NCBI GenBank assembly: GCA_922989275.2
Contig: OV277862.1
Coordinates: forward strand, 47,021,786-47,085,785
Direction of reading: 5' to 3'
Source: Gari tellinella
Lineage: Eukaryota; Mollusca; Bivalvia; Cardiida; Psammobiidae
Length of the DNA stretch: 64,000 bases
The position numbers and the translations under genes are program-made. Under the pieces are notes generated by a model. It worked only from the letters and a program-made list of their open reading frames with translations, made no database searches and was not told where the DNA came from. Below are positions 4,195 through 63,782 of the stretch, one piece after another; within the stretch, counting starts at the first letter, position 1, and each line of letters opens with the position of its first letter.

Positions 4195-4410
4195 TACAGT
4201 GGAGAAGCTGTTATTCTTTCCCGTTTAAACGCAAACGTACGCAAACGCAAAACACTAAAACGTAGAAAAATACAACTTTTTGACAATTCTGATAATGCAT
4301 CTTTATCTTGGTGGCAAACAGTTTGGAGCCTGATCAGACGCCGGGTTACCCGGCGTCTGATCTGGCTCCAAACGCGTTTATTGGGAAAGAATAACGTTTT
4401 CTCCACTGTA
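4195..4410. mobile_element. Family A MITE
   Basis: Starts TACAGTGGAGAA and ends TTCTCCACTGTA, giving TIRs of about 25 bp (through the TTATTCTTTCCC block) and TA at both ends, as for Tc1/mariner-type targets. The centre (about 4311-4375) is a palindrome built on CAAACAGTTTGG, GATCAGACGCCG and their complements. The right arm of the palindrome has lost its last block, so CTCCAAACGCG runs straight into the right terminus. No coding capacity; open frames here are repeat translations. Confidence 0.85.
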
Positions 4411-5080
4411 GAAGACCAAGACGAAGACGCAGTCTGCTCTTCTGTCAGTCTGCTTTGCTCTCAAATTACCAAAATTGAGCAATTGTCTAACATAATCTGT
4501 CGTAATCGTAACATATACAACGAAGAAATACGTGGTAATTGTGAGGCAATGCTGCTTACAAACCTGTGAAATGTGTGGAAACAAGTCGAGTTTGAATTCA
4601 AGCTTGTTTATATTCAAATAACGACGAAGATACTCGGTAAAAGCTTATTAGCACATCCTATATACACCCGTCGATGATGTCATAGCTAATTGTGGTGAGA
4701 TCTATGAGCACTTTCAATCAAAGAGAGACAACTGCTCAATAGATGTGCAAGTAAACAGCATGTTTTGTCCGCTAGACGCACCCCCCCCCCCCCTCCCACA
4801 CCCTATCGATCACATGACTTTCGGAGAATACTTCAGAAATGAAGTCATGGTTAATTTGCCGATAATTTTCTGTCTTTCTTTTCTTAAGAACAATTTTTTG
4901 AAAAACCCCGCCAAATATTTGCTGTCCGAGTTCGAAAGATTAATTCGCGAATGAAAATTGCATATGTCACGCCTCCTATGCGAAACTTATCCACAAGTAC
5001 CGCCTCCTTCAGCAATTGCATCTGTACGAATTTAACGACACATTTCCAACGGAATTGAATGGGGCGAATGTATATTCATG
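4411..5080. other. No recognisable gene
   Basis: AT-rich sequence with a poly-C run near 4781-4793. I see no long ORF, splice-linked exon or known repeat terminus. Confidence 0.5.
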
Positions 5081-5138
5081 TACAGTGGAGAAAACGTTAT
5101 TCTTTCCCAATAAACGCGTTTACCCTAAAACTAATATG
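5081..5138. mobile_element. Family A MITE, left end only
   Basis: TACAGTGGAGAAAACGTTAT and the following CCCAATAAACGCG match the left terminus of family A, then similarity stops at about 5138. There is no matching right end nearby, so this is a truncated copy. Confidence 0.75.
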
Positions 5139-5177
5139 GAATAGGCAAAGCCTATTAGCGAGCACTGCTAAACCACA

Positions 5178-5297
5178 GGGGACCGTCACAATAGAAGTCT
5201 GAACCCCAAAAGAAAAAAAATGTATAAACACTAGATATATAGACTTTGTATACATTTTTTTTTCTTTTGGGGTTCAGACTTCTATTGTGACGGTCCC
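5178..5297. mobile_element. Palindromic MITE (foldback)
   Basis: Two ~48-bp arms, 5178-5226 and 5248-5297, are near-perfect reverse complements. They begin GGGGACCGTCACAATAGAAG and end with its complement, with an A-rich/T-rich inner stem and a ~20-bp AT-rich loop. No second copy of this family is seen in the window. Confidence 0.8.
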
Positions 5298-5584
5298 CAG
5301 TGTGCTAAACCATCTTCAGAAAGCAAAGAATGAAGATTGTAACAAAATAGTATACCAAATAAATACGATTATGCGTAAATACACGTTTTATATATCTACT
5401 TAAGATAATAAAATTTAACAATAATTTAGCTACATGTATTATGAAATAAGCAAGTGCAGCTGTACATTTGGAGCAAATTAAGAATATGTTTGCACAAGAA
5501 TCATTCCATTAATGGTTGCTCCATTAGACTAACCTTTGAACAGAATGACACTTACCAAACCCTATTCCTACTGAATGAGGGTCA
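5298..5584. other. No recognisable feature
   Basis: AT-rich unique-looking sequence without coding or repeat signals that I can recognise. Confidence 0.4.
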
Positions 5585-5907
5585 AATTCATTTAAGAAAG
5601 GCTACGGTGGAGTTAGCCTTTTTGGTTATTTTATCAATGTTGAAACCCCATCTCAGGTCTTCTGATAGTGTCACGCGTAGGTAAGGGTTCTCCTGGACCT
5701 GCTTTAGGATTTGGTTGTCTAGGGTGTAGAAATGACTGGATCTGTTATTGACACTCATGAGGTAGCACTTCTTGGCATTGAAACGCATACCCTATGTCGA
5801 GGCCCAGGCCTTCAGCCCACTCAAGTCCCTCTGCAGCACGTCATGATCCTCCTGACTCCGGATTGTTCTGTACAGAAGGCAGTCATCTGCAAACAGCCAG
5901 ACTTGCA
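5585..5907 (-). pseudogene. CR1-like reverse transcriptase fragment
   Basis: Reading on the minus strand gives VWLFADDCLLYR (the catalytic F/YADD box C motif), then QEDHDVLQRDLSGLKAWAS. An in-frame TAG replaces the usual Trp codon, and MRFNAKKCYLMSV follows, then QVQENPYLRVTLSEDLRW and ITKKANSTVAFLK. This is the palm-thumb junction of CR1/jockey-type LINEs. It is a ~110-residue fragment with one stop, unrelated in sequence detail to the LINE at 1-4140. Confidence 0.85.
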
Positions 5908-5915
5908 ATTTAACG

Positions 5916-8629: not shown

Positions 8630-8818
8630 TATTATGTTCACTGCAAACAGTTTGGAGCCAGATCAGACGCCGGGTAACCCGGCGTCTGATCAGGCTCCAA
8701 ACTGTTTGCCACCAAGATAAACATGAATTATCAGAATTGTCAAAAAGTTGTATTTTTCAACGTTTTAGTGTTTTGCGTTTGCGTTTAAACGGGAAAGAAT
8801 AACAGATTCTCCACTGTA
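8630..8818. mobile_element. Family A MITE, left end replaced
   Basis: Contains the full palindromic core (about 8645-8710, CGCCGGGTAACCCGGCG at the tip). The right half to the terminal CTCCACTGTA at 8818 is intact. The left TIR is missing; the sequence enters the family only at ATTATGTTCACTGC. Confidence 0.8.
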
Positions 8819-9809: not shown

Positions 9810-10025
9810 TACAGTGGAGAAAACCTTATTCTTTACCGTTAAGACGTAAAAGAAACGCAAACGCAAAACCCTAAAATGTAGAAAATAACAGTTTTCCGAC
9901 ATTTTTCACTATCTATTTTTGTCTGAAATGCAAACAGTTTGGAGGCTGATCAGACTTTTTGTAATGCAAATAATAGTTTTAGCGTAACGCGTTTATTGGG
10001 AAAGAATAACGTTTTCTCCACTGTA
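9810..10025. mobile_element. Family A MITE with half of its core deleted
   Basis: Both TA-flanked termini are present (TACAGTGGAGAA at 9810, TTCTCCACTGTA at 10025). The central palindrome stops at GGCTGATCAGAC and jumps directly to TTTTGTAATGC, so the whole tip and the right arm are gone. Confidence 0.85.
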
Positions 10026-10185: not shown

Positions 10186-10545
10186 TACAGTGGAGAATCT
10201 GTTATTCTTTCCCGTTTAAACGCAAACGTACGCAAACACAAAGCACTAAAACGTAGAAAAGTACAAGTTTTTGACATTTCTGATAATTCATCTTTATCTT
10301 GGTGGCAAATAGTTTGGAGCCTGATCAGACACCGGGTTACCCGGCGTCTGATCTGGCTCCAAACTGTTTGCAGTGAAAACAATAGTTTTAAACCGGCGTC
10401 TGATCAGGCTCCAAACTGTTTGCCACCAGGATAAACATGAATTATCAGAATTGTCCAAAAGTTGTACTTTTCTACGTTTTAATAGTGCTTTGCGTTTGCG
10501 TACGTTTGCGTTTAAACGGGAAAGAATAACAGATTCTCCACTGTA
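10186..10545. mobile_element. Composite family A MITE: two left halves fused head to head
   Basis: The left ~150 bp from TACAGTGGAGAATCTG and the right ~150 bp ending CAGATTCTCCACTGTA are reverse complements, including the CAAACGTACGCAAAC block normally found at one end only. The middle has a full core (10307-10372), a short AGTGAAAACAATAGTTTTAA piece and half of a second core (10388-10428). It therefore looks like two oppositely oriented copies joined after deletion of one end of each. Confidence 0.85.
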
Positions 10546-10709: not shown

Positions 10710-10949
10710 AGTCTTACACTTTTAAACGCATACGAAACGCAAACGCGATGGACTGAAACGTAGAAAGTTACACCTTTTTTTTTAAATTTCTCACGATTTT
10801 TTTTAATCTTAGTGGCAAACAGTTTGGAGCCAGATCAGACGCCGGGTTACCCGTCGTCTGTTCTGGCTCCACACTGATTACAGTGGAAAAAAATAGTTTT
10901 GGCGTTAACGCGTTTATTTGGTAAGAATAACGCCTTCTCCACTGTAAGT
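10710..10949. mobile_element. Family A MITE, decayed
   Basis: The core lies at about 10814-10880 (CCGGGTTACCC tip, right arm eroded) and the right end reads CTTCTCCACTGTA. The left end is lost; AAGTCTTACACTTT occurs both before the element (10709) and right after it (10946), so an older duplication of flank is possible. Confidence 0.7.
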
Positions 10950-11129
10950 CTTACACTTTGAAACTTAACTACGCACAAACGCAATGCAATAAAATGAGAA
11001 AAACTATAGTGCTTTGAAATTGTTAAATAATAATTCTATCTTAGTGTCATCCGGTTTGGGGTTAGGTCGTAGTTTCTGCATGATAATTTAAGTGTTTATT
11101 GGGAAAGAATAACTTCTTCTCCACTTTAT
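10950..11129. mobile_element. Family A MITE, highly decayed
   Basis: CGCACAAACGCAATGC, a faint core remnant (CCGGTTTGGGGTTAGG) and GGGAAAGAATAACTTCTTCT followed by CCACTTTAT follow the order of family A. Confidence 0.55.
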
Positions 11130-11377: not shown

Positions 11378-11627
11378 TACAGTGGAGAATCTGTTATTCT
11401 TTCCCAATAAACGCGTTTACGCTAAAACTATTATTTGCAGTGCAAACAGTTTGGAGCCAGATCAGACGCCGGGTAACCCGGCGTCTGATCAGGCTGCAAA
11501 CTGTTTGCCACCAAGATAAACAAGAATTATCAGAATTGTCCAAAAGTTGTTATTTTCTACGTTTTAGTGCTTTGCGTTTGCGTACGTTTGCGTTTAAACG
11601 GGAAAGAATAACAGATTCTCCACTGTA
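11378..11627. mobile_element. Family A MITE, complete
   Basis: A 250-bp copy with TA at both ends, TIRs through TTATTCTTTCCC, and an intact core at about 11446-11511 (CGCCGGGTAACCCGGCG tip). Confidence 0.9.
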
Positions 11628-11672: not shown

Positions 11673-12059
11673 TACAGCGCTCTCTCTCTTCAACGGCCCT
11701 CCCAACAACGACTCACTGCTTACAACGACGCTTGCCGCTGTTCCCCAAACAAGAAAGTATGTCCAACCTGTTAACGTCTGCAATATCTTCTGCTTAAAAT
11801 TTTTGTCTGCTGTTTTTCTCAAAGTTACATATTGGACATTTTGTCAGAAAACTAACATAATGAAGAGTGACAAACAGCTTGAATCTAGATCAGACGCCTC
11901 GTTACGCGGCATCTGATGTAACGCAGCATCTGATCTGGATTCAAGATGTTCGCAAATGTAAGCCAAGTCTTAATTTTCCCTCCATATAACGACTCCCTCC
12001 GAACAACACACACAATCTGTGTCTCCCATTGAGAGTCATTGAAGAGAGGGAGAACTGTA
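11673..12059. mobile_element. Family E MITE (pogo/Tigger-like ends)
   Basis: Begins TACAGCGCTCTCTCTC and ends AGAGGGAGAACTGTA, TA-flanked. The interior has CAACGGCCCTCCCAACAACG and, on the right, ATAACGACTCCCTCCG. A core palindrome at 11878-11947 carries an extra partial repeat of its tip (CGGCATCTGATGTAACGCAG). The CAGTG-CTCCCT-ACAACG style of end resembles pogo/Tigger transposons; no transposase is encoded. Confidence 0.75.
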
Positions 12060-12710: not shown

Positions 12711-12965
12711 AGGGCTGCCATTTCTCCGGAATTTTCCTAAGTATTCGGATTTTTATCCTAGCAGATCGTAGCTTAAAACAGGCTGAAAGTAAAGCAGAAT
12801 GCGCCTTAAGGCGCATTCTGCTTTACCTTCAACCTGTTTTAAACAGTCATGTGTCTTCAGAACAAGAAAACGTCTATGGGGTAATGGTACGGTTAGTAAA
12901 ATTTCGTCTGAAAAATTGAAAGTTTGAAATCTTAGGATTTTTATTATCAACTTATGGCAGCCCTG
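12711..12965. mobile_element. TIR element AGGGCTGCCAT carrying a P2 fragment
   Basis: AGGGCTGCCAT at the left is repeated inverted as ATGGCAGCCCT at the right. Inside, 12745-12890 is the right two-thirds of a P2 element (TATCCTAGCAG, then the CTGAAAGTAAAGCAGAATGC palindrome with GCGCCTTAAGGCGC at its centre, then a GGGGTAATGG end). This is a third terminal context for the P2 core. Confidence 0.7.
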
Positions 12966-13397: not shown

Positions 13398-13611
13398 TTA
13401 ACTCTTATCATGCTGAAGTGTCATCTGCTTCAAATATATTATCTGCTAAAACTCTATAAACTAGGTTTCATATTTTTAAATAGAAGAAAACTTGAATACT
13501 AGTGACAAACAGTTTGGATCCAGATCAGACGCCGCGTTACGCGGCGTCTGATTTGGACCCAAACTGTTTGCAAATGTTAGGCAAGCCATGCTTAGCATGA
13601 CAATGGGTTAA
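13398..13611. mobile_element. P1-type TTAA MITE
   Basis: TTAACTCTTATCATG at the left and ATGACAATGGGTTAA at the right give TTAA on both ends, the piggyBac-type target. The core at 13505-13572 is a near-perfect palindrome with a GCCGCGTTACGCGGC tip. Confidence 0.7.
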
Positions 13612-13888: not shown

Positions 13889-14362
13889 TTAACTCATTAC
13901 CACATACATGTACATACATCTTTTATTCTACTGAATAACATAGTAAATCTATACAGCTATGAAAATCTTCTATATTCTAGCAATTGAAAGCTTAAATCAA
14001 GCAGGCTGACAGTAAAGAAGAATGCATCTTTGTGCGCATTATTCTTCACGTGCAATTTGTTTAAGTGGTCCGGGGCCCGTTTCATAAAACTTCTTACGAC
14101 AAATATTGTCGTAAGTCAAATCTTTAAAATGCATTTAATTTTTTATTTCTCTATCGAATCCTGTTTTGTGACACCTTTTTGGAATCGTCTTTTCAAGACG
14201 ATTCCAAAAAGATGTCACAAGACAGGGTTAGATGGAGAAATAAATACCTATTGAGAGTTTTAAAATCTGACTTAAGACAACATTTGTCGTACGAAGTTTT
14301 ATGAAACGGGTCCCAGGTATCTGTCTTCAAAATTAGAAACAGGCTATGGGGTAATAGGTTAA
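13889..14362. mobile_element. P2 TTAA MITE interrupted by a C element
   Basis: Left end TTAACTCATTACC and right end GGGGTAATAGGTTAA, with the P2 core (CAGGCTGACAGTAAAGAAG ... TTTAAGTGG) between. The element is split at GTGGTCC/AGGTATCTG by the C element at 14072-14314; removing it restores the usual P2 order (TTTAAGTGG then a CTGTCTTCAAAA block). Confidence 0.8.
14072..14314. mobile_element. C-family MITE (GGGGCCCGTTTCATAAAAC)
   Basis: Long inverted repeats: GGGGCCCGTTTCATAAAACT and ATTGTCGTAAGTC at the left pair with GACTTAAGACAACATTTGTC and GTTTTATGAAACGGGTCCC at the right. The centre is a second stem, GGAATCGTCTTTTCAAGACG. Two more copies lie at 31625-31861 and 35270-35510. Confidence 0.88.
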
Positions 14363-14467: not shown

Positions 14468-14712
14468 TTAACCCTTTCACTCTCAGTGACACCAAAAAGC
14501 GCGTTTGCAAACAGTTTGGACCCTAATCAGACGCCGCGTAACGCGGCGTCTGATCAGGATCCAAACTGTTTGACACTCTATCGATATGCTTAAGTCGTAT
14601 GATATTGAATCTTACTTTGAAACGATCTTGCAAACAACAAAGTTGAAGCAGACGACAATGAAACAGTGAAGGGGTAAACATCTTACGATTAATTTGGCAG
14701 CGAAAAAGTTAA
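14468..14712. mobile_element. P1 TTAA MITE
   Basis: TTAACCCTTTCACTCTCAG at the left; TTAA at 14709 on the right. The core at 14505-14572 is a perfect palindrome around CGCCGCGTAACGCGGCG. GAAGCAGACGACAATGAAAC on the right side recurs in other P1 copies. Confidence 0.8.
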
Positions 14713-16981: not shown

Positions 16982-17340
16982 TACAGTGTTCCCTCCCTAC
17001 AACGGCCCTCCCAACAAAGACACCTTCCTTACAACGACCCTTGCCGCAGTTCCTTAAACAGGACAATAATGTCTACCGCTCTTACTGCTGTAATATCGTC
17101 TCCTTAAAATTGTCGTAGGCTGTTTTTCTCAAAGTTGCATAATGGATGTTTTGACAAAAACAACTTCCTGACAAGTGACAAACGGCTTGAATCCACATCA
17201 GACGCCGCGTTACGCGGCGTCTGATCTGGATCAAGCTGTTTTAAATGTAAGCCGATTTCCCTCCCTATAACGACTCCCTCCGAACAGCACACACAACTGT
17301 TGTCTCCCAGTGGGTGTCGTTATAGAGACAAAGCGCTGTA
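16982..17340. mobile_element. Family E MITE, complete
   Basis: TACAGTGTTCCCTCCCTACA at the left and AGAGACAAAGCGCTGTA at the right. CAACGGCCCTCCCAACAAAG and its right-hand counterpart ATAACGACTCCCTCCG are present. The core at 17176-17242 is a perfect stem at the tip (GACGCCGCGTTACGCGGCGT). Confidence 0.85.
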
Positions 17341-17812: not shown

Positions 17813-18062
17813 TACAGTGGAGAATCTGTTATTCTTTCCCGTTTAAACGCAAACGAAACGCAAACGCAAAGCACTAAAACGTAGAAAAGTGCAACTTCGG
17901 ACAATTCTGACAATTCATGTTTATCTTGGTGGCAAACAGTTTGGAGCTAGATCAGACGCCGGGTTACCCGGCGTCTGATCTGGCTCCAAACTGTTTGTAA
18001 ACAAAAAAATAGTTTTAGCGTAAACGAGTTTATCGGGAAAGAATAACATATTCTCCACTGTA
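17813..18062. mobile_element. Family A MITE, complete
   Basis: 250 bp, TA-flanked, both TIRs, core at 17934-17999 nearly perfect (CGCCGGGTTACCCGGCG). One of the best preserved copies. Confidence 0.9.
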
Positions 18063-22490: not shown

Positions 22491-22742
22491 TTAACCCATT
22501 ATCCCCTGGAACTTCTAATGGAAAATTCCAGTTTGCAATAAAAGCTGGTCCATTTTAGACTATTGAGGGTTGTTTTATTGTAATAATTTGCAAAATGCCA
22601 AACAGTGAAGTCTCTGATCAGAGGGCTCCTGCAGGAGCCCTCTGATCAGAGACTTCACTGTTTGCATAGGACAAGCGTACCATTCACAGGTACACATTTG
22701 GTAAAAGACGCATATATGCGTCACTAGGGCTCAATGAGTTAA
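22491..22742. mobile_element. P3 TTAA MITE, complete
   Basis: 252 bp with TTAA at both ends (TTAACCCATTATCCCC ... GGGCTCAATGAGTTAA). The core AACAGTGAAGTCTCTGATCA ... GGGCTCCTGCAGGAGCCC is a perfect palindrome, with both arms carrying the same AAGTCTCTG variant. Confidence 0.88.
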
Positions 22743-22845: not shown

Positions 22846-23095
22846 TACAGTGGAGAAAACGTTATTCTTTCCCAATAAATGCGTTTACCCTAAAAATATT
22901 ATGTTCACTGCAAACAGTTTAGAGCCAGATCAGACGCCGGGTAACCCGGCGTCTGATCAGGCTCCAAACTGTTTGCCACCAAGATAAAGATGAATTATCA
23001 GAATTGTCAAAAAGTTGTATTTTTCTACGTTGTAGTGTTTTGCGTTTGCATACGTTTGCATTCAAACGGGAAAGAATAACAGATTCTCCAATGTA
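22846..23095. mobile_element. Family A MITE, complete
   Basis: Exactly 250 bp with TA at each end; right terminus CTCCAATGTA has one change. The core at 22911-22977 has a CGCCGGGTAACCCGGCG tip. Confidence 0.88.
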
Positions 23096-25549: not shown

Positions 25550-26072
25550 ACTGTAACAGTATTCCCTTTCTACAAAAACACCCAATGGGAGACAACGATT
25601 GTGTGTTGTTCGGAGGGGAGTTGTTATAGGGAGAGACATTGGCTAACATATGTAAACAGCTGATATCCAGGTCAGATGCGTGTAAATTTTAATATTGCAG
25701 CGGTGAAAATGTTAGATATAACTGTCTTGTTTTGGGAACAGCGACATTATTGTGTTTTTAGGGAATCGTTGTTGGGAGGAAGAACTATAGCTTGTAGTCA
25801 GATCAAACGCTGAGTTACCATTGTAAAGATTCAAGATGCATGTTGCCAAGACCTTGTATTTGTAATTTACTACTTGGACTATGTAGATCCTGATCTGCTG
25901 TTTTTCTCAAAGTTATAAGCATATGTAGCAGCGGCCTGTTTCGCGGTGTTTGATCTCGATTCAAGCTGTTTGCAAATGTAAGCCAAGTCTAAATGTTGCC
26001 TCCCTATAACAATACCCTCCAAACAACTTTTTGTCTCTCATTGGGTGTTGTTGCGTGAGGGAGCACTGTACC
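25550..26072. mobile_element. Family E MITE, rearranged
   Basis: The left part reads CTGTAACAGTATTCCCTTTC and TGTGTTGTTCGGAGGGG; the right part reads GCCTCCCTATAACAATACCC and ends GTGAGGGAGCACTGTA. The core is broken (GCTGATATCCAGGTCAGATG at 25660, GCGGTGTTTGATCTCGATTC at 25945), with ~250 bp of other sequence between. Confidence 0.6.
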
Positions 26073-29410: not shown

Positions 29411-29818
29411 TTTACCCATTACCCCATAGCATGTTTCTAGTTTTGAAAATAGGTGGCCACCTAAAGCAGGTTGAAAGTAAAGCAGAATGTGTCTTAACCC
29501 TTAGCCTGCCACTCACGACTATAGCTTTATATGCAAACAGCTTGGATCCGGATTAGACGCCGAGTAACTCGGCGTCTCATCCGGATCCAAGCTGTTTGAC
29601 ACTCAGACAACATTTTCAGCAATTTTGAGCAACTTTGAAACTTGAAGCAGACGAGAAATATAGCAGACGACAATTTATTTGGCGGGCTAAGGGTTAATGC
29701 ACACTTTGCTTTACTTTCGCATCTTACATTTTCATGACTGTTTAAAGTGGAATTATTTTCTTAAGTAGAGGAATAAATCAAAGGCCTAAAAATGCACATT
29801 TATGGGATAATGGGTTAA
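29411..29818. mobile_element. P2 TTAA MITE with P1b inside
   Basis: TTTACCCATTACCCCATAGC at the left and ATGGGATAATGGGTTAA at the right. Its core, AAAGCAGGTTGAAAGTAAAG ... TTTGCTTTACTTTCG, is opened at its central TTAA by the P1b element. Confidence 0.88.
29494..29697. mobile_element. P1b TTAA MITE at the dyad of a P2 core
   Basis: TTAACCCTTAGCCTGCCACT to GGCGGGCTAAGGGTTAA, 204 bp including both TTAA copies. The core at 29531-29600 is a palindrome, GGATCCGGATTAGACGCCGA with CTCGGCGTCTCATCCGGATC. It is followed by GAAGCAGACGAG and GCAGACGACAATTTATT. The flanks GCAGAATGTGTC and TGCACACTTTGC are the two sides of the P2 tip. Confidence 0.9.
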
Positions 29819-30205
29819 CAAACGTCAGTATATGGGGGGAAAGGGTTGAATCCTGGACAAGAAAAAATGAAAAGACATACAGATAACTCTGACAAAACCA
29901 ATATTAAACACATGTATAAATATGGCATAAGACATAATTACATAACTGTCAGTGGATCACTTCCAGATCCTGTTTCTCTAAGTATGAAGCAGACTGAACC
30001 ATATCTAAACTTTAGCAGACAACATGTTCAGCTGATCATGACCAGTTCTGTGATACCCCCTACCAGTTGCATAATATTTGACCTCAGTGGCTGTAGCTCT
30101 GGGGCTTACCCTTACCAGACTGAAATGATGTCTGCTTAAAACCTACTGTATGTGAAAAGTGTACAAAAAAACAATTTAGAAAATGTTAAGTTGGTAAATG
30201 AGTGG

Positions 30206-31604: not shown

Positions 31605-31910
31605 GCAAACAGTTTAGATCCTGTGGTCCGTTTCATAAAACTTTGTACGACCAAAAACGGTCGTAAGTCAAAACTTTAAAATACATAAAATTTCTGATTT
31701 CTCTATCTAATCTGGTCTTGTGACATCTCTTTGGAATCGTCTTTTCAAGACAATTCCAAAGAGATGTCAAAAGACAGGATTAGATGAAGAAATATAATAA
31801 TTGAGACTTTTATAATCTGACTTACAACATTTGTCTTACAAAGTTTTATGAAACGGGCCCCAGCCCCTGATCAGATTCTGCGTCTGATAGGGATCCAACC
31901 TGTTTGAAAC
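31605..31910. repeat. P1-type core split by a C element
   Basis: GCAAACAGTTTAGATCCTG at 31605 and CCTGATCAGATTCTGCGTCT ... CCAACCTGTTTG at 31865 are the two parts of one core. The C element at 31625-31861 lies between them. Confidence 0.8.
31625..31861. mobile_element. C-family MITE
   Basis: GGTCCGTTTCATAAAACTTT at the left, AAAGTTTTATGAAACGGGCC at the right, central stem GGAATCGTCTTTTCAAGAC. Confidence 0.85.
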
Positions 31911-32154
31911 TCATTTCAGTATTAGAAATAAAAGCAGACAGCAGTTGTTCAAGGCAGATAACATCACACCAAAGAAGGGTTACAGCATTAACTGCTAGTA
32001 TTTGAAATAATATCCTGACATGTACATGTAGTAATTACAGCTCTCTATTACAACCACTTAAAAGAACGTTCATTGATTGTATCAAAGACAGGTGACAGTT
32101 CAAAGTACAATGAAACGAAAACAAATCTTTCCTTTCACCTTGCTTTAACCCTTT

Positions 32155-32395
32155 CCTCCCTGAAACTTTAAATTGAAAATTCCAGTTTCCATTTTAGTCT
32201 AGTCCATTTCTGACTTTTAATGGTTGTTTTTGTCAACGTTTGGCATTATGACAAACAGTGAAGACCCTGATCAGAGGGCTCCTTTCGGAGCCCTCTGATC
32301 TGGGTCATCACTGTTTGCACAGGACAAGTGTACTATATACATGTACACTGTTTAAAAAAGACGCCTATAAGCGGGACTAGGGTTCAAAGGGTTAA
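32155..32395. mobile_element. P3 TTAA MITE, complete
   Basis: TTAACCCTTTCCTCCCTGAA to CTAGGGTTCAAAGGGTTAA. The core's tip is GGGCTCCTTTCGGAGCCC and outer arms are CAAACAGTGAAGACCCTGAT and ATCTGGGTCATCACTGTTTG. Confidence 0.88.
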
Positions 32396-32516: not shown

Positions 32517-32730
32517 TTAACCCTTAGCCCGCCAAATAAATTGTCGTCTGCTATATTTCTCGTCTGCTTCAAGTTTCAAAGTGCTTCTAAGTTGCTCAAA
32601 ATTGCTGAAAATGTTGTCCGAGTGTCAAGCAGCTTGGATCCGGATGAGACGCCGAGTTACTCGGCGTCTCATCCGGATCCAAGCTGTTTGCATATGGAGC
32701 TATAGTCGTGAGTGGCAGGCTAAGGGTTAA
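32517..32730. mobile_element. P1b TTAA MITE, complete
   Basis: TTAACCCTTAGCCCGCC to GGCTAAGGGTTAA, opposite in orientation to the copy at 29494. The core at 32623-32692 is a perfect palindrome carrying GCTTGGATCCGGATGAGACG on one arm and the exact complement on the other. Confidence 0.9.
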
Positions 32731-34448: not shown

Positions 34449-34699
34449 TTAACTCTTTGAACCCTAGTCCCGCATATAGGCGTGCTTTTCAAACAGTGTA
34501 CATGTTAATAGTACACTTGTCCTATGCAAACAGTGAAGACCCTGATCAGAGGGCTCCGAAAGGAGCCCTCTGATCAGGTTCTTCACTGTTTGTCACAATG
34601 CCAAACATTGACAAAAACAACCCTTAAAAGTCAGAAATGGACTAGACTAAAATGGAAACTGGAATTGTCCAATTAAAGTTTCAGGGAGGAAAGAGTTAA
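34449..34699. mobile_element. P3 TTAA MITE, complete
   Basis: TTAACTCTTTGAACCCTAG to GGGAGGAAAGAGTTAA, 251 bp. The core tip is GGGCTCCGAAAGGAGCCC. This intact copy is the reference for the interrupted one at 26517. Confidence 0.9.
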
Positions 34700-35545: not shown

Positions 35546-36041
35546 CTGACACCTTTGATGGACAATTCCAATTTCAAAATAAGTCTCGACCAATTTGGAC
35601 AACTTTGGGTTGATTTTAACAATATATTTCATAATGACAAACAGTGTATACCCTGATCAGAGGGCTCCTTAACCCTTTCACTCTTAATGACGCTTTGAAG
35701 TGCGTTTGCAAACAGTTTGGATGCTGATCAGACTCCACGTCACGCGGCTTCTGATCATGACCCAAACTGTTTGACGCTCTTATCCGTGTTTATTAGGTCA
35801 TACAACCTTAAATCTAACTTTGAAAGGTGCCTTGCAGACAACACTAATGAAGCAGACGAAAATAAAGCAGTGTAGGGGTAAAAAGAAATCCCAAATAATT
35901 TGAGCATGAAAGGGTTAAGGAGCCCTCTGATCAGGGTCTAAGAAGCCCTCTGATCAGGGTCTACACTGTTTGCATTGGACAAATGTAATCCTCACAGGGT
36001 ACACTGTTTGTAAATGATGTCGCTAGGGCTTAATGTGTTAA
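35522..36041. mobile_element. P3 MITE with P1 inserted at its dyad
   Basis: AACTCATTCATCCCTGACAC and the left arm to GGGCTCC; after the P1 element come GGAGCCCTCTGATCAGGGTC, a duplicated partial arm (AAGAAGCCCTCTGATCAGGG), and GCTAGGGCTTAATGTGTTAA. Confidence 0.85.
35669..35918. mobile_element. P1 TTAA MITE, complete
   Basis: TTAACCCTTTCACTCTTAAT to AGCATGAAAGGGTTAA, 250 bp. It sits exactly between GGGCTCC and GGAGCCC, i.e. at the centre of the P3 palindrome. The core at 35708-35771 is somewhat worn. Confidence 0.9.
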
Positions 36042-37874: not shown

Positions 37875-38231
37875 TACAGTGCTCCCTAGATCTACAACGG
37901 CCCTCCCAACAACAACTCCCTCCTTACAATGACCCTTGCCATAGTTCCCCAAACAAGACATTTATGCCCAACTTTTTCATGCCTGCAATGCCATCTGCTT
38001 TCTTTTTTCAAAGAAACATATAAGTTGACATTCTGATAGAATAAATATAATGACCAGTGACAAACAGCTCGATTCCGAATCAGACGACGCATTACACGGC
38101 ATCTGATCTGGATTCAAGCTGTTCACAAATGTAAGCAAAGTCTTAATTTTCCCTCTCTATAACGTCTCCCTCCGAACAACACACATAATCTGTGTCTCCC
38201 ATTTGGTGTCATTGTAGAGAGGGAGCACTGA
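37875..38231. mobile_element. Family E MITE, complete
   Basis: TACAGTGCTCCCTAGATCTA at the left, TAGAGAGGGAGCACTG at the right. CAACGGCCCTCCCAACAACA and ATAACGTCTCCCTCCG are inside. The core at 38060-38125 is worn (GACGACGCATTACACGG). Confidence 0.85.
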
Positions 38232-39392: not shown

Positions 39393-41940
39393 ACAAGAGT
39401 TGTCAGAGAGACAACAAAGCTCGCCACCGGCACCTTTAGAAATTTAAAAGCACACTCAAGGTCACAAAGGTCAACCTTTTTGCCTGCATAGAAAGGTCTT
39501 GTCCATATACACTGGCAAATCAAATATGAAAATAACACCTCAAGGGACATAGGAATTATAAGCATTTTTGAAACCTAAACGCAGATTTCAAAACCTAAAA
39601 CCTTTCGCGATTTTAGTTCAAGGTCAAGGACACTTGGCTAATTTTTTTGCATGCATGGAAAGGTCGTGTTCATATACACATGCATGCCAAATATGAAAGA
39701 AATATCGCAATGGATATATGAGTTAAAGAAATTTTGAGAAACATAAAAGCAGACTTTGAAACCTAAACGCGGGTCCTAAGTTCAAGGTCAAGGTCAGAGG
39801 ACTCAAACATTTTGCATGCAAGGAAAGATGTTGTCCATATACACATGCAAACTGAATATGAAAGGAATATTTCAATGGACATAGGAGTAATAAAGATTTT
39901 GAGAAACCAAAACACAGATTTCGAAAACTAAACATGGGCCCTAAGTTCAAAGTCAAGGTCACAGGGGTCTAAATTTTGCTGTGCCTGGAAAGGTCTTGTC
40001 CATATACACACATAAACCAACTATGAAAGCAATACCTCAAGGGACATAGAAGTTAAAGGCATTTTTCAAAACCTAAACACAGGACCTAAGTTCAAGGTCA
40101 AGGTCACAAGGGTCCAAATTAATATGTGCATGGAAAGGTCTTGTCCATATACACACACATACCAACTATGAAAGCAATACCTCAAAGGATATAGAAGTTA
40201 AATGCATTTTTCGAAACCTAAACGCAGATTTCGAAACCTAAACACAGGCTCTTAGTTCAAGGTCAAGGGGTCTAAATGTTTCTGTGCATCAAAAGGTCAT
40301 GTCCATATACACATACATACCAACTATGAAAGCAATACCTCAAAGGACATAGAAGTTAAAGGCATTTTTCTAAACCTAAACACAGATTTCGAAACCTAAA
40401 CACAGCCCTAAGTTCAAGGTCAAGGTCACAGGGGTCTAAATTTTTCTGTGCATGTAAAGGTCTTGTCCATATACACATACATACCGACTATGAAAGCAAT
40501 ACCTCAAGGGACATAGACGTAAAAGGCATTTTTTGAAACCTAAACGCAGATTTCGAAACCTAAACGCAGGCCCTAAGTTCAAGGTCAAGGTCACAGGGGT
40601 CTAAATTTTTCTGAGCATGGAAAGGTCTTGTCTACATACACACACATACCGACTATGGAAGCAATACCTTAAAGGATATAGAAGTTAAAGGCATTTTTCA
40701 AAACCTAAACGCAGATTTCGAAACCTAAACACAGGCCATAAGTTCAAGGTCACAGGGGTCTAAATTTTGCTGTGCATGGAAAGGTCTTGTCCATATACAC
40801 ATACATACCAACTATGAAAGCAATACCTCAAAGGACATAGAAGTTAAAGGCATTTTTTCTAAACTTAAACAGATCTCGAAACCTAAACGCAGGCCCTAAG
40901 TTCAAGTTCAAGGTCACAGGGGTCAAACATTTTCTGTGCATGGAAAGGTCTTGTCCATATACACACACATACCAACTATTGAAGCAATACCTCAAGGGAC
41001 ATAGAAGTTAAAGGCATTTTTCGAAACCTAAACGCGGATTTCGAAACCTAAACGTAGGCCCTAAGTTCAAGGTCAAGGTCACAGGGGTCTAAATTTTTCT
41101 GAGCATGGAAAGATCTTGTCTATATACACACACGTACCGACTATGGAAGCAATACCTTAATGGATATAGAAGTTAAAGGCATTTTTCAAAACCTTAACGC
41201 AGATTTTGAAACCTAAACGCAGGCTCTAAGTTCAAGGTCACAGGGGTCTAAATTTTTCTGTGCATGGAAAGGTCTTGTCCATATACACACACATACCAAC
41301 TATTGAAGCAATACCTCAAGGGACATAGAAGTTAAAGGCATTTTTCGAAACCTAAACGCGGATTTCGAAACCTAAACGTAGGCCCTAAGTTCAAGGTCAA
41401 GGTCGTCTAAATTTTTCTGAGCATGGAAAGGTCTTGTCTATATACACACACGTACCGACTATGGAAGCAATACCTTAATGGATATAGAAGTTAAAGGCAT
41501 TTTTCAAAACCTTAACGCAGATTTTGAAACCTAAACGCAGGCTCTAAGTTCAAGGTCACAGGGGTCTAAATTTTTCTGTGCATGGAAAGGTCTTGTCCAT
41601 ATACACACACATACCAACTATGGAAGCAATACCTCAAGGGACATAGAAGTTTAAAGGCATTTTTCGAAACCTAAACACAGATTTCGAAACCTAAACGCAG
41701 GCCCTAAGTTCATGGTCAAGGTCACAGGGGTCAAAATTTTTCTGTGCATGGAAAGGTCTTGTCCATATACACACACATACCAACTATGAAAGCAATACCT
41801 CAAGGGACATATAGAAGTTATAGACATTTTCTTAAAATTGTTTACTCTGTTCACGACGACGCCGACAACAACGACGCCGACGACTACACCGGGGGTATTG
41901 CAATAGCTCGTCATGTACTACGTACAGGCGAGCTAAAAAT
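39393..41940 (+). mobile_element. HINE-like element with ~165-bp tandem repeat array
   Basis: 5' end ACAAGAGTTGTC AGAGA GACAAC (hairpin GTTGTC/GACAAC) then GCTCGCC. The array from about 39590 to 41830 has roughly 13-14 units. They contain TTCAAGGTCAAGGTCACAGG, GGAAAGGTCTTGTCCATATA, ACTATGAAAGCAATACCTCA, GACATAGAAGTTAAAGGCAT and CGAAACCTAAACGCAG, some units shorter by a CGAAACCTAAACGCAG copy. The 3' part is GACGACGCCGACAACAACGA then GTACTACGTACAGGCGAGCT and AAAAA. The 3' GGCGAGC complements 5' GCTCGCC. It occupies most of the intron between two EIF6 exons. Confidence 0.88.
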
Positions 41941-43619: not shown

Positions 43620-43871
43620 TTAACCCTTTCCCCCATAGAAGCGACTTTTAGCGTATTTATTTTATTCATCCGCTGAAGAAAATAGTTCCAGTTTATAACC
43701 TCATGAACAATTACCATTACAAATATTTTATATAGTCTAGCAGATTTTAGCTTAAAGCAGGCTGAAAGTAAAGCAGAATGTGCCTTAAGGCACATTCTGC
43801 TTTACTTTCAACCTGCTTTAAGTGGCCACCTGTCTTCAAAACTAGAAACAGGCTATCAGGTAAAGGGTTAA
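43620..43871. mobile_element. P2 TTAA MITE in the hairpin loop of a HINE-like 5' end
   Basis: TTAACCCTTTCCCCCATAG to CTATCAGGTAAAGGGTTAA, 252 bp. Perfect core (GTGCCTTAAGGCAC tip). It sits at the TTAA of GCTGTCCTTAAGACAGC. Confidence 0.9.
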
Positions 43872-46526: not shown

Positions 46527-46769
46527 TACAGTGGAGAAAACGTTATTCTTTCCTGTTTACACGCTAACGTAAAACACTAAAATGCAGATAAGGACAATTT
46601 TTTGACAATTCTGACTTTTCATTGTTATCTTAGTGGCAAACAGTTAGGAGCCTGATCAGACGCCGTGTTTACCCGGCGTCTCAGATCAGGCTCCAAACTG
46701 TTTGCACTGGAAATAGTACTTTTAGCGTAAAAGCGTTTACTGGGAAAGAACAGCGTTTTCTCCACTGTA
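46527..46769. mobile_element. Family A MITE
   Basis: TACAGTGGAGAAAACG to CGTTTTCTCCACTGTA. The core tip has extra bases (GCCGTGTTTACCCGGC and CTCAGATCAGG). Confidence 0.88.
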
Positions 46770-46877: not shown

Positions 46878-48266
46878 CAGGGCCCCGACACGATTGCTTT
46901 TTGAGAAAAAAACCGTCAGAAGTATATCGATTTTTTTCTCTAACAAGAGCGTGTCCCAGTTACACGAATGCCCCCGATGATACAGGGAGGGGATTCCAGA
47001 CTATCAAATGTAAAATGTACGAGTTAGAGAGCAGAAACTGTCATGGCGCGCCATAAAAGCGCCATTTTGAGGAATTCAAGGGCCGTTACTCCAAAGAGCC
47101 TAGCATAAATTGGCGCCGCTGGTTATCCAACTTGGTCTCCATTTTATGTCAACAAACATTTTCAGAAAGTTTGGTGAAGATCAGATGAAAAGCAATGTGT
47201 TTGTGAAACACAAATGCCCCCAGCCAGCGTCATGTTCTGTAATGTAATGCTTATTTGCAAAAGTAGGTCAAAAGTCATGGTCGCATGGTAAATGAAACAT
47301 TGGCATGGTTGAACAAGTCTTAACACAAGAAACATTCAATGTACATGTACATACAAAGTATGGAAGCTCTAGGCCTACTGGTTCAAATGTTATAGGCATA
47401 TAAAGATTTATACAAAAGCCGGTCAAAGATCAAGGTCACAAGGGCAAAAGCGTAGGTATGGTTGGAAAGGTCTTGACACAAGAAATATATAAACAAAATA
47501 TGAAAGCCGTAGGCCTACTGGGGCAAATGTTATAGCCATTTAAAGATTTTAACAAAAGTAGGTCAAATGTCAAGGTCAAAATGTCAAAAAGTTTTGTATG
47601 GTTGGAAAGGTCTCGCCACAGGGAAGACACCTGCCAAGTATAAAAGGCCCAGGTGCAAAAATGCAAAAGTTATAGCCAAGGTTAAGGTTTTTGGTTAAAG
47701 TTTGATTAAATAGGTCAAAGGTCAAGGTCACATGGTCAAATATGTTGGTATGGTTGGAAAGGTCTTGACAAAAGAAATATACATACAAAATATGAAAGCC
47801 CTGGGCCTACTGGTGCAAATGTTATAGCCATTTAAAGATTTTTACAAAAGTAGGTCAAATGTCAAGGTCAAGGTCACAAGGTCAAAAAGGTTTGTATGGA
47901 TGGAAAGGTCTTGATACAGGGAAGACACATGCCAAGTATAAAAGGTCCAGGTACAAAAATGCAAGAGTTATAGCCAAGGTTAAGGTTTTTGGCACAGACA
48001 GACGGACTGACGGACGTGCCACCGAATTGGGTTAGAGGGCCTTTTCTTTTGTTATTTTCTTTTGTTCGAATAACGGGCCACGGCCCCTTAGTGTATTGTT
48101 ACGGAATGAACTCCATTGTCTTCTTTTGTTATGTTTACCGTTATCTGGCCCTCTAACCCACTTTAGTGGCGCGGACGGACGGACGAACCAACAGACATGA
48201 CAAAAACAATATGCCCCCGAATCGTAGATTCTGGGGGCATAAAAATAGCAATCGTGTCGGGGCCCG
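46878..48266. mobile_element. TIR element GGGCCCCGACACGATTGCT, interrupted by a HINE-like element
   Basis: CAGGGCCCCGACACGATTGC at the left is mirrored at 48247-48266 (GCAATCGTGTCGGGGCCC). Only ~60 bp (with ATATCGATTTTTTTCTC) belong to it; the rest is the inserted element at 46943-48246. Confidence 0.8.
46943..48246 (+). mobile_element. HINE-like element with ~130-165-bp repeats
   Basis: 5' ACAAGAGCGTGTCCCAGTTA CACG (GTGT/ACAC hairpin) then ATGCCCCCGATG. A second 5'-like block GTGTTTGTGAAACAC / AATGCCCCC is at 47198. About five units carry GGAAAGGTCTTGACA, TATGAAAGCCCTGGGCCTAC, GGTCAAATGTCAAGGTCAAG and TTATAGCCATTTAAAG. GACGGACTGACGGACG and GGACGGACGGACG precede the 3' hairpin ATGCCCCC ... 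GGGGGCATAAAA. Local CTCTAACCCAATTC / TAACCCACTTTAG pieces suggest an internal foldback at 48025-48160. Confidence 0.78.
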
Positions 48267-48534: not shown

Positions 48535-49895
48535 ACAAGAGGGCCTGAAGGCCCTGATATCGCTCACCATTTGTAATGAAGCCTGGTAGCTTTACCTTTG
48601 AATTTCACCCGTTTTATTCTAAATCCATTCAAGTTTGTCGACCTACTGTAGTATAGTAGAGTACATCAAAGGCAGATAACTAAAGCCTAAACAATACCGA
48701 AATGAAGCCTTTTTCTAGCATTTCAAAGTATATCAAGGGCAGGTAAATATTGCCACAATGATTACATTTCAACAATAATTGCACTCCTTCCAGAACATAT
48801 AGCTACATCCTTTTTGTACAAGTATAATCAAAATCCATTGAAAACTGTAGTTGCAAGAGTGTAAACGATGTAAAATATGGCATTTTCAGCAATTCAAAGG
48901 TAGATATCTCTTAATCTATTTGTCAGATTCCAACCATAATCACCCTTTTTCGAACTCTTATGGTCATATACCATCTGGGCAAGTTTGAGAGAGTTTGGAT
49001 AAATATTGTGGCCTCTAGAGCTTAAACACTGTTAAATATATCATTTTCAGCAATTCAAAGGTAGATAACTTTTGACCTATTGATCCGATTACAACCATAA
49101 TTGAACTCGTCGGAAGTCTTATGGTAGTTTACAATCTGAGTAAGTTTGAGAAAGATTAGATAAAATTTGTGACCTCTAGAGTGTAAACATTGTTAAATAT
49201 GGCATTTTCAGCAATTCAAAGGTACATAACTCTGGACCTATAAGTCTGATTTCAACAATAATCGAACTCATTTTAACTCTTATAGTCATATACAATCTGA
49301 GCAGGTTTGAGATAGATTGGATAAAAATTGTGGCCTCTAGAGTGTAAACACTGTTAAATATGGCATTTTCAGCAATTTAAAGGTAAATAACTCTTGATCA
49401 ATTTGTCCGATTTCAACTAAAATCAAACTCATCCGAACTCTTATGGTCATATACAATCTGGGCAAGTTTTAGAAAGATTGGATAAATACTGTGGCCTTTA
49501 GAGTGTAAACACCGTTAAATATGGCATTTTCAGCAATTCAAAGGTAGATAACTCTTGATCTTTTTGTCCGCTTTCAACCAAAATCAAACTCATCCGAACT
49601 CTTATGGTCATATACAATCTGGGCAAGTTTTAGAAAGATTGGATAAATACTGTGGCCTCTAGAGTGTAAACACTGTTAAATATGGCATTTTCAGCAGTTC
49701 AAAGGTAGATAACTCATGACCTATTGGTCCAATTTCAACCATAATCGAACTCATCCGAACTCTTATGGCAATATACCATCTGAGCAAGTTTGAGAAAGAT
49801 TGGATAAATATTGTGGCCTCTAGAGAATAAACACTAAAATTGTTGACGACGAACGACGCACGACGGACATTCAAGGATTGCAAAAGCTCGTCCTA
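48535..49895 (+). mobile_element. HINE-like element, ~7 units, 3' end lost
   Basis: 5' ACAAGAGGGCCTGAAGGCCC (hairpin GGGCC/GGCCC) then CGCTCACC. About seven ~155-bp units from 48800 contain TGTGGCCTCTAGAGTGTAAA, AATATGGCATTTTCAGCAAT, CAAAGGTAGATAACTC, CGAACTCTTATGGTCATATA and GGGCAAGTTTGAGAAAGATT. The 3' side has GACGACGAACGACGCACGAC then AAAGCTCGTCC; a GGTGAGC 3' stem is not present. Confidence 0.78.
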
Positions 49896-54964: not shown

Positions 54965-55214
54965 TACAGTGGAGAATCTGTTATTCTTTCCCGTTTAAAC
55001 GCAAACGTACGCAAACGCAAAACACTAAAACGTAGAAAAGTTCAACTTTTGGACAATTCTAATAATTCATGTTTATCTTGGTGGCAAACAGTTTGGAGCC
55101 TGATCAGACGCCGGGTTACCCAGCGTCTGATCTGGCTCCAAACTGTTTGTACTGCAAATAATAGTTTAAGCGTTAACGCATTTATTGGGAAAGAATAACA
55201 GTTTCTCCACTGTA
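54965..55214. mobile_element. Family A MITE, complete
   Basis: 250 bp with TA ends, TIRs, and core at 55085-55150 (CGCCGGGTTACCCAGCG). Confidence 0.9.
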
Positions 55215-59530: not shown

Positions 59531-59535
59531 TTTTT

Positions 59536-60839: not shown

Positions 60840-61555
60840 CCACACCGTCGACTTTTTAGGCAGCTCTTTTAGAGCTACTACGATTTAGATTAGAGGCCAT
60901 TTCCGGGCGTTGATAGAGGCCACAACAAACATGGCAGAAAGGTGAGTCAAGTTTCGATTTTGCTTCAAAACAGTATTTTTTCTGCTTTTTTCTAGAAATC
61001 GGGGAATGTAGTTCCACGTAAAAATGTCCACTTGACGAATTAGTTATCATCGTATGCTCCATTATTGCGATGTGGCGCCCCAATTTCATTCGGCGCAAAC
61101 GTTACACGATCATATTCAAACCGAAAGTGGTCAAAACATCAACATTTATGTACAAAAAAGTGCAATGCACGAATTCATTCTGCATCTAACGCAGCTTTAA
61201 GATGCACACGAACACTATTGGCTGTTTGGTATACTTTATGTGAATCGGAACACGCAACATTGAATATTATGGGCTAATTTTCTAAAAGAGGTGCCTTCGA
61301 GGCTATGAGGTGCCTGATAGGAGCCGAGCAACCTACTAAGAGGAGGGTTTCTGTTGAACAAATTTAGGACTGATATTGTCAAAACTTGCTATATTTCATC
61401 GAAATCATGACCTGTCATGATTTCAAGTAAGGTTCCAAGGAATAATACGGCTTTATATATGTAATCTTATATCAAACTTTAAATGCAATGAAACGGATAT
61501 AAAGAGGTATGATTGTTAGAAAATTTAAACATGAACAATTTTCTAATTAGCAAAT
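60840..61555. repeat. Large inverted repeat, left arm
   Basis: Arm of ~715 bp mirrored at 62720-63435. The outer edge is GTCGACTTTTTAGGCAGCTC and the inner edge CATGAACAATTTTCTAATTA. The two translated frames shared by the arms differ by 2 of 80 and 1 of 70 residues, so identity is high (a young duplication). Confidence 0.92.
60931..60941 (+). CDS. Candidate first coding exon of a tiny gene
   Basis: ATGGCAGAAAG followed by GTGAGT. Spliced to 61693 it would read MAER then WVCFVVLDENACSWRRR. Seen: start codon, strong donor, frame-compatible acceptor. Not seen: any known family. The same start and donor exist inverted in the right arm. Confidence 0.25.
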
Positions 61556-62719
61556 AGATGGAAAGTATACTTTAAATATGTACTTTTTTGTACACAAGTG
61601 GGATTCAACAACTTCTCAAATATATAAATGACTAACAATCCATGAAAAAAGACATAGACACTTAGACCACTTTCATTTTCCTTTCGTTTCAGATGGGTGT
61701 GTTTCGTGGTATTAGATGAAAATGCCTGTTCCTGGCGAAGAAGAAACATAGATATGCACATCATAGACACAGCTACAACGCTCAAATCAAATATTCATAT
61801 TCTAAATCAAATATTCCACTAAGTAGTACCCCAGCAGCGAAGATTAAAAGGACAATTCAAGATATCAGAAGTGCCAGTAAATACTCACCAGATTGAAAGA
61901 GTGTTCGATTTTTGTCCCAAATATCTAAATTGATTTCAGCACAAATAACTCAAAAACAAGAAGAACGTTATTTGACAAGACTGCACATACCAACAAACAG
62001 TCACCTAACGGCGATTCCAGAGAAACAAACACTTCCAACTTGTTTAGACTGTGACACATACAGTATCTGTATTCTGAGGACTCATTTTGTGACATAGATA
62101 TGAACGATAGCTCAGATGATAGTTTTCGAACAGAATACAAAGACATTTTAAATATTGACATTTATTAAAGCTTAACAAGGCATTACGCTAATCTAAACCA
62201 CTACCTACATTCTGCATGTAAATCAGTCCGATGATGTGGGTTTGTGTATAAGGAGGAGACCTTTTCACTCTAGAATGCGGAAACTACGCCATATACTGAT
62301 TTTGAATACATGACATAGGTGATCACGCTTTCAAAAGGTACCACCTTGTTACATTGGTGGTTTAAAAATAAATGATCAACGTCTGGTATCAATAGAGGCG
62401 ATTGTCATAATAACGCGACGTCAATTTCCGATCAGATTTCCAGGTGTTTTATTTTTTAAATTTCCGAACATATTTCCGTGGTTTGTTAATTCTAAAAATA
62501 GATTTCCGGTTGTTGGTTTTTTTTTCTTCATTTTTTATTTAGATTTCCGAGATACGTGAGTCCGTGAAATTCCGTGGTTTGTTAACCTCCCAAATACAAC
62601 TCGTTGCGACAAAAGTCCCTTCCTCTTGACGTAAGCTATAATAACTATATGTAACGTTTTAAGTGCTTGCATTTTGAGCCGTGGAAGGGTTGTTGTTTCT
62701 ATTTTTTGTGTAAAAGTTT
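61556..62719. other. Spacer of the inverted repeat
   Basis: Unique ~1.16 kb between the arms; holds only the tentative exon(s) above and T-rich tracts. Confidence 0.7.
61693..61822 (+). CDS. Candidate second coding exon of a tiny gene
   Basis: Preceded by CCTTTCGTTTCAG; reads A (completing Arg), WVCFVVLDENACSWRRRNID, MHIIDTATTLKSNIHILNQI, FH, stop: 46 residues in total with exon 1. A second pyrimidine-AG acceptor (TTGATTTCAG) at 61938 opens a 53-residue frame ending at 62097. Function unknown; it may be chance. Confidence 0.25.
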
Positions 62720-63435
62720 CAATTTTGCTCATCAGAAAATTGTTCATGTTCCAATTTGATAACAATCAGACCTCTTTATATCCGTTTCATTGCATTTAAA
62801 GTTTGAATTAAGATTATATAAAGCCGTATTATTCATTGGCACCTCACTTGAAATCATGACAGGTCATGATTTCGTTGAAATATAGCAAGTTTTGACAATA
62901 TCAGTCCTAAATCTGTTCAACAGTAACCCTCCTCTTAGTAGGTTGCTCGGCTCCTATCAGGCACCTCATAGCCTCGAAGGCACCTCTTTTAGAAAATTAG
63001 CCCATAATATTCAATGTTGCGTGTTCCGATTCACATAAAGTATACCAAACAGCCAATAGTGTTCGTGTGCATCTTAAAGCTGCGTTAGATGCAGAATGAA
63101 TTCGTGCATTGCACTTTTTTGTACATAAATGTTGATGTTTTGACCACTTTCGGTTTGAAAATGATCGTGTAACGTTTGCGCCGAATGAAATTGGGGCGCC
63201 ACATCGCAATAATGGAGCATACGATGATAACTAATTCGTCAAGTGGACATTTTTACGTGGAACTACATTCCCCGATTTCTAGAAAAAAGCAGAAAAAATA
63301 CTGTTTTGAAGCAAAATCGAAACTTGACTCACCTTTCTGCCATGTTTTTTGTGGCCTCTATCAACGCCCGGAAATGGCTTCTCATCTAAATCGTAGTAGC
63401 TCTAAAAGAGCTGCCTAATAAGTCGACAGGGTGTG
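62720..63435. repeat. Large inverted repeat, right arm
   Basis: Reverse complement of 60840-61555. Differences include a CCTTGGAAC indel region near 62835 and single substitutions. Confidence 0.92.
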
Positions 63436-63471
63436 TATACACGTTACAACATGAAACGAACAGTAATGCAC

Positions 63472-63676
63472 AACAGAGCTCCAGACAAGAGGGGTTAAAT
63501 TAAGTTGTTAGACATTTATCGTTCAAAGCTGCAACAAAACGCGCGGTACGACTACTCATTAGAATCGTATCTTCGAGACGATTCCAATGAATAGTTACAC
63601 CGTAGGTCTGTTCTGTTCTGTTCTAATTTACACATAGAATTTTTAGTTTTGAAATCTCACCTTATTTGGAGCCCCG
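63472..63676. mobile_element. G-family MITE
   Basis: CAGAGCTCCAGACAAGAGGG at the left, CACCTTATTTGGAGCCCCG at the right, centre CTCATTAGAATCGTATCTTC and complement. A TCTGTTCTGTTCTGTTC microsatellite is inside. Confidence 0.82.
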
Positions 63677-63678
63677 TT

Positions 63679-63782
63679 AAAGCAAAGTTAACCAACATCT
63701 ATTCAATAAAACGTTTTTGCTAAACCCTTAATTTCATTGCAAATAGTTTGGTGCCAGATCAGACGCCTGGTAACCCGACGTA
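63679..63782. repeat. Direct repeat, right copy
   Basis: AGCAAAGTTAACCAACATCT to CCTGGTAACCCGACGTA; matches 60665-60770. Confidence 0.88.

Follow-up and report, generated by a model that had tools for sequence, protein, structure and literature searches.

A palindromic hairpin core shared by TTAA- and TA-inserting miniature transposable elements in the bivalve Gari tellinella

We identified, in a 64,000-nucleotide stretch of the Gari tellinella genome (assembly GCA_922989275.2, contig OV277862.1, positions 47,021,786 to 47,085,785 of the forward strand, hereafter the window), a palindromic core of about 65 bp that is shared by miniature inverted-repeat transposable elements (MITEs) of two kinds, inserted at TA or at TTAA. 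The reading that we favour, and hold to be fairly probable, is that the core is an old hairpin of TTAA-inserting MITEs, captured at least twice by TA-inserting MITEs, constrained in the amplifying copies of one of them (family A), and aiding its carriers in cis. An initial annotation of the window had described the core and interpreted it as a hairpin exchanged between end types; its observations are partly confirmed, and its interpretation partly supported, by the results below.

Abundance and structure of the core

Searches with the core arm, CAAACAGTTTGGATCCAGATCAGA, returned 78 matches in the window at up to 6 mismatches and none in five letter shuffles, and 28 two-armed palindromes were printed out. 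By profile, we identified 36 near-full cores in the window, bearing out the more than thirty copies first reported, and 138 in 25 further stretches of the same genome, each of 10 kb and placed at round coordinates; the reversed sequence of either set contained none. The density of 0.56 per kb in the window, against 0.55 per kb in the 250 kb elsewhere, indicates that the window is ordinary for its genome. Across the genome searched (1.6 Gb in 80 contigs), the arm matched 431,491 times in forward and 431,085 times in reverse orientation at up to 2 mismatches (862,576 matches), and the reversed-pattern controls gave 0 and 1. Extrapolation from the density in the sampled stretches would place about 880,000 cores in the genome, and at about 0.55 per kb the core alone would account for near 3.6% of it.

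The full core consists of a 31-pair stem and a tip of 3 or 4 bases (five cores folded), and is polar, with a GTG-type junction on one side and TG on the other. A known RNA family was rejected, as no Rfam match was found in the window at the gathering threshold. Exact core patterns had no matches in viral contigs or in prokaryote genome contigs.

Carrier families

The carriers A, E and P1/P1b, together with P3 and its sister core, were all as the initial annotation had described them. Family A ends in TA|CAGTGGAGAA, family E in TA|CAGTGYTCCCTC, and P1/P1b in TTAA|CCC.... The typical geometry of A is TA, 120 bp, core, 65 bp, TA, with a consensus of 250 bp and TA at both ends, and core-bearing TTAA elements measure 204-252 bp. 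Both A and TTAA elements have the properties of MITEs, being short, with terminal inverted repeats, target duplications and high copy number and, judged from their size, lacking coding capacity. A and E combine a TA target with inverted ends of CAGT type, letters that we take to mark the Tc1/mariner or pogo superfamily. The TTAA elements resemble piggyBac-type MITEs in having TTAA at both ends, which start with CCC or CTC. We found 47 TTAA elements by their ends alone, of which 24 hold a C1 or P3 core, 11 another palindrome, and 12 none by rule, several of these 12 being of about 250 bp, like P2. Thus, unlike piggyBac-type MITEs generally, 35 of the 47 carry a palindrome of 65-72 bp.

We classed 193 near-full cores by loose end motifs; the TTAA rule also admits TTTAC, which is found inside P1 elements, and loci L003 and L004 appear to contribute one same core twice. 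Loci L001-L008, chosen for holding the core, were kept in these counts and excluded from the constraint test given below. Ends of A were recognised on both sides of 51 cores and on one side of 16, TTAA-like ends on both sides of 35 and on one side of 33, and E ends on both sides of 6 and on one side of 6; mixed ends occurred in 8 (A with TTAA-like 6, E with TTAA-like 2), and 38 had no recognised end on either side. By hand count, 17 of the 35 two-sided TTAA-like cores lie within a few bases of a 109/40 geometry, five of them resting on the TTTACCC motif inside P1, and 8 lie at the 107-108/78 of P3; the outer TTAA ends of P1, where paired, give 245-250 bp. One further TTAA family, at L001:348, L017:8035, L019:2542, L025:215 and L026:9938, combines a P3-like outer stem with a C1-like tip, and its cores link the two core types.

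Family E as a nested TTAA element

The long arm of E repeats the arm of the TTAA elements, with a TAACGCTTTCACTGCTG end like theirs, both TCGTCTGC motifs, and then the core; beyond the core, the E end returns after some 14-17 bp that, by eye, resemble the other TTAA arm. With the core excluded, the profile score between the E and TTAA long arms was 52.1 (null maximum 13.7 in 100 column shuffles), and 46.3 (null maximum 13.5) when the 6 junction columns were also removed. Tested as single copies over 90 bp, all four E arms exceeded all 800 shuffles (4.7-18.8 bits; null maximum 3.1), and three of the four remained above the null with the last 5 bases trimmed. Inside, E is therefore not unrelated to the TTAA elements, whose arm forms its long arm. 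As in a composite MITE, an inner TTAA end and long arm lie inside an outer element, the second inner arm being truncated and unmatched; the best reading of E is accordingly a TA MITE into which a TTAA MITE has inserted.

We additionally identified five places with E ends and no core match within 400 bp. Three of these (L024:531-807, window 25557-26068 and window 58820) are deleted or rearranged copies, and two (L019:6139-6503 and L023:5634-5705) are candidates for a core-free E.

Origin of the core in family A

The cores of A and of the TTAA elements are alignable along their length, with a mean identity of 80% over 110 pairs, compared to 58% when shuffled. In 23 older A copies the junction matches that of the TTAA arm in register (0/200 shuffles), and older A copies end in GAGTGG or GAGTGT, the same as the TTAA elements. 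Comparisons of older A copies with the E arm were equalled in 10 and 15 of 200 shuffles, and that of the short arms of A and E, with the junction removed, in 2 of 100, which we did not take as evidence. No inner element was recognisable within A by profile tests, such as a composite MITE would contain. Family A may thus descend from an old nested insertion with eroded flanks, or may have captured hardly anything besides the hairpin.

Co-inheritance of core and ends

Core and ends are co-inherited. A variable site in the core is G in all 47 A cores that were typed (17 more being untyped), compared to 0/22 TTAA-type, 0/10 E and 1/12 single-ended TTAA-type cores. A tree of 120 cores (73 of the 193 being untyped or of a length outside 60-68) requires 4 changes of end label, where the minimum possible is 2 and the shuffled mean 45.7; well-supported inner branches number 5 of 103. 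The agreement between core and terminus histories, which the initial annotation had named as refuting its proposal, is accordingly nearly complete, and E and the TTAA elements can be aligned outside the core, the other outcome that it had named as refuting. Exact genome counts gave 19,071 matches for the TTAA-type junction with the TTAA-type core, 612 for the TTAA-type junction with the A core, and 395 for the A junction with the TTAA-type core. Four loci were opened from the 612, of which three are A elements with an older junction and the fourth is a broken core with no recognised end. Among the matches listed, those of the TTAA-type junction with the A core cluster at G000 C2 25.0-26.9 Mb, a possible local amplification.

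Termini lacking a core are few and mostly retain remnants of it. This was judged on arms that reach the core side, leaving out 69 long and 85 short A arms and 25 long TTAA arms. Among the A long arms intact up to the core side, 75 of 79 have a core match; a core remnant begins three of the other four, and the last, at window 10945-11054, has none that was recognised. Likewise, 45 of 50 complete TTAA long arms have a core match, four of the other five have core remnants, and one is an E copy from which the core is deleted. All 40 A copies found by their ends alone hold the core. One module does occur in both TA and TTAA carriers, with at least two transfers between end types suggested; ongoing exchange was rejected, as core subtypes follow the ends and the tree needs 4 changes.

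Pairing and constraint

We investigated pairing in 25 cores spread over the families, and found that 94.1% of cells pair, that 18 of the 31 pairs change on both sides, and that 80 cells are changed on both sides. None of 500 shuffles reaches these figures, and only 31-38% of cells pair once the partner is slid, a control that matters because related sequences can beat shuffles without structure. An earlier set of 25 window cores gave 91.2% pairing, 13 both-sided pairs and 65 cells. Inside A, 59 changes in core pairs are one-sided and 3 both-sided, of which 1 is Watson-Crick, and the A consensus retains a T-T mismatch. The one-sided changes in settled A copies indicate that pairing is restored or selected in the sources and not in place.

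The core of A is also constrained at the level of its sources, as seen in 34 of the 40 copies found by ends, with loci picked by core dropped. Of the 65 core sites, 2 carry variants common to at least 3 copies, whereas 31 of the 129 arm sites do (Fisher p 9.2e-5); for variants common to at least 2 copies, the numbers are 13 core sites and 55 arm sites (p 0.0023). Singletons are found in 37 of 2138 core cells and 98 of 4265 arm cells (p 0.14), or 1.7% private changes per cell in the core compared to 2.1% and 2.8% in the two arms, and the joint table gives p 0.010.

Origin and role of the hairpin

Under the reading that we favour, a large clan of TTAA-inserting MITEs of piggyBac type would long have carried the core as its central hairpin, and the core would have reached TA-inserting MITEs at least twice: into E by the nesting of a TTAA MITE, which was afterwards amplified by way of the outer TA ends, and into A by an older event that may have left only the hairpin and a junction of about 6 bp. 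After capture, core and ends would amplify as a single unit. The hairpin could then act in cis to make its carrier spread more, by a step on the side of the host rather than by one transposase, with hairpin or cruciform formation, replication and escape from silencing as candidate steps. We infer this benefit, and with it a function of the hairpin, because the hairpin stays paired across families and is nearly fixed in the amplifying lineages of A. A wider proposal, in which a transposase-independent hairpin module raises the spread of any carrier, is selected among copies and is handed between TTAA and TA types, can be offered as a tentative one only. If carriers do profit from the hairpin irrespective of their ends, two transposon types would have a cis-acting amplification element in common, which could point to the reason why certain MITEs attain hundreds of thousands of copies; the abundance of the core also provides a large natural data set on how palindromes are kept or remade.

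Several results weigh against this reading. Outside the core, significant similarity between A and TTAA arms ends with the 6-bp junction, past which the match is weak (6/200 shuffles); A does match the P3 arm (0/200 shuffles; also 0-1/100), but out of register. The short arm of E is unmatched to the TTAA short arm (score 4.8, reached by 20 of 100 shuffles), and when the flank is cut to 55 bp, one of four E long arms is above the null maximum. As regards constraint, 7 P1b and 10 P3 copies are too few to show the same as in A, the P3 "core" having been drawn too wide, and the core of A may vary little because its copies come from few source lineages. Finally, the single opened piggyBac locus (L040) contains no core-arm match at up to 3 mismatches.

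The initial annotation had also suggested a parasite of parasites, in the form of a hairpin able to pass between MITEs unaided, and had listed cores standing alone. The presence of the same 65 bp within elements of different ends, and the fact that A shares almost nothing besides the core with other carriers, would suit such movement. Among the 38 untyped cores, however, the profiles place 6 next to an A or TTAA arm; the three that are well kept (59-69 bits) all carry such arms, by profile at L024:5247 and L017:2390 and by eye at window 59264, a TTAA copy; the cores at window 13506, 55432 and 56315 likewise have TTAA-type arms by eye. The 32 cores not placed next to an arm by profile have a mean of 35.7 bits, compared to 67.9 (A) and 61.9 (TTAA) in two-ended, arm-matching copies, and a low core score does not reflect age alone, because 13 two-ended TTAA copies with unmatched arms average 38.6 bits. 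No young lone core was seen among these 38 of the 193, target duplications of their own not having been systematically searched. As, in addition, the core is accompanied by its asymmetric junctions, GTG| and TG|, and core and end types agree, by subtype and by tree, we rejected a self-moving core as very improbable. That the palindrome arose separately in each family has practically nothing to commend it: P2 does bear a different palindrome of similar size, but the identity of the A and TTAA-type cores over their length, on which we rejected this view, and the cores intermediate between C1 and P3 speak against it.

Two further explanations concern what maintains the hairpin. Fold-back copying or template switching could remake one arm at the birth of a family, so that pairing is produced and not selected; the inverted A dimer at 10186-10545 and the scarcity of one-sided standard pairs (16 cells, compared to 80 changed on both sides) are consistent with this. 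We nevertheless consider it doubtful, since the one-sided changes inside A (59, compared to 3) indicate no action on settled copies, the A consensus keeps its T-T mismatch, and the low source variation is unexplained by it. Alternatively, the core might be a functionless passenger, spread by nesting and chance founders, with its low variation due to few recent sources or to homogenisation. The nested composite structure of E, as in MER6 (see below), and the limitation of the constraint to one family fit this explanation, which we regard as unlikely because, in the same A copies, variants common to at least 3 are so unequally divided between arms and core, the stem stays paired across families with different letters, and no A copy found by ends alone lacks the core.

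Comparison with known systems

Families of short interspersed elements (SINEs) with different heads and tails have in common a highly conserved central domain. Similarly, the elements studied here combine one central module, conserved above its surroundings, with unrelated outer parts; SINEs, however, move by RNA, whereas both end types here belong to DNA transposons, and what is conserved is the dyad. The concept of a SINE highly conserved domain appears in the consulted part of PMC6887750, where MER6/MER6A is described as a TA-type composite MITE that carries the V-SINE highly conserved domain through nested insertion. As in MER6/MER6A, a conserved domain from another mobile element appears nested in a TA-type MITE and has spread along with it. 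In MER6, going by the same part of that paper, the donor is a SINE and copies number hundreds per genome (PMC6887750), whereas here a hairpin is the module, its donor would be a TTAA MITE, and its density is about 0.55 per kb.

The KolobokP elements, as covered in the consulted part of PMC9587614, are bivalve-rich DNA transposons with a composite-like architecture, a likeness to the elements found here, and Kolobok termini read 5'-RR...YY-3' with TTAA. Membership of the TTAA ends in Kolobok was rejected, as the core-bearing ends start with C (CCC, CTC or similar) and not with 5'-RR. In the partial literature searched, we found no report of a hairpin common to TA and TTAA MITEs, MER6 being the nearest case, and six strings of core, end and arm letters had no match in the literature text searched.

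We identified 86 piggyBac transposase matches in the genome, of which 20 are nearly full and open; with one locus opened, none was linked to the ends of the core-bearing TTAA elements. The opened piggyBac locus contains a TTAACCC element of 201 bp (L040:513-713) without a C1 core-arm match. A Mos1-like fragment was seen by chance at L021, and inverted repeats flank a mariner fragment.

Copies and other repeats in the window

The window contains a reverse-transcriptase open reading frame and an eIF-6 match amid repeat-rich DNA. On its forward strand, family A MITEs lie at 4195..4410 (TA ends, short arm partly deleted, core 4315-4379), 17813..18062 (core 17933-17997), 46527..46769 (core 46637-46704) and 54965..55214 (core 55085-55149), together with a copy whose core is missing one arm (9810..10025, core at 9931) and the inverted dimer, which has one whole and one half core (10186..10545). 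The reverse strand carries A copies at 8644..8818 (short arm truncated, core 8644-8708), 11378..11627 (core 11443-11507) and 22846..23095 (core 22911-22975). Family E is found on the forward strand at 11675..12057 (TA ends, TTAA-type arm, core 11871-11952, truncated second arm), 16984..17338 (core 17179-17242) and 37877..38230 (core 38061-38125).

Of the TTAA-inserting MITEs, those on the forward strand are a TTAA-type copy at 13398..13611 (core 13506-13570), apparently one of the cores first listed as alone, a P1b at 32517..32730 (core 32626-32690), a P3 at 32145..32395 (sister core 32252-32317), a P3-like element at 22491..22742 (core 22599-22664), and a P2 at 43620..43871. The palindrome of P2 (CTTAAAGCAGG...) is of similar size to the core but different from it. 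The second core reported within the AGGGCTGCCAT element (12711..12964, forward strand, by eye) is present there, but as a nested P2, since P2's own flanks come with the palindrome on both sides; the element called P4 (TA) was not located. On the reverse strand lie a P1 at 14468..14712 (core 14508-14572), a P3 at 34449..34699 (sister core 34527-34592), a P1b at 29494..29697 (core 29534-29598) and a P1 at 35669..35918 (core 35709-35773). The last two occupy precisely the apical TTAA of a P2 palindrome and of a P3 core, respectively, and L032:9165 is a further TTAA MITE at such a P3 or P2 apex, a pattern that would suit hairpin tips serving as landing sites for TTAA MITEs. The P1b-in-P2 segment at window 29200-29950 is 97% identical over 568 bp to L030:7851-8500, and the pair is probably a larger duplication.

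Other repeats include a further hairpin MITE (CCGTTTCATAAAACTT) at window 14072-14314, 35268-35510 and 31606-31906, one copy of which lies inside a C1 core. We additionally identified tandem arrays with units of about 140-175 bp at window 27114-28916, 39456-41830, 47348-47976 and 48856-49835, and an inverted repeat at window 60841-63433, with arms of 619 nt that are 98% complementary and lie 1355 nt apart.

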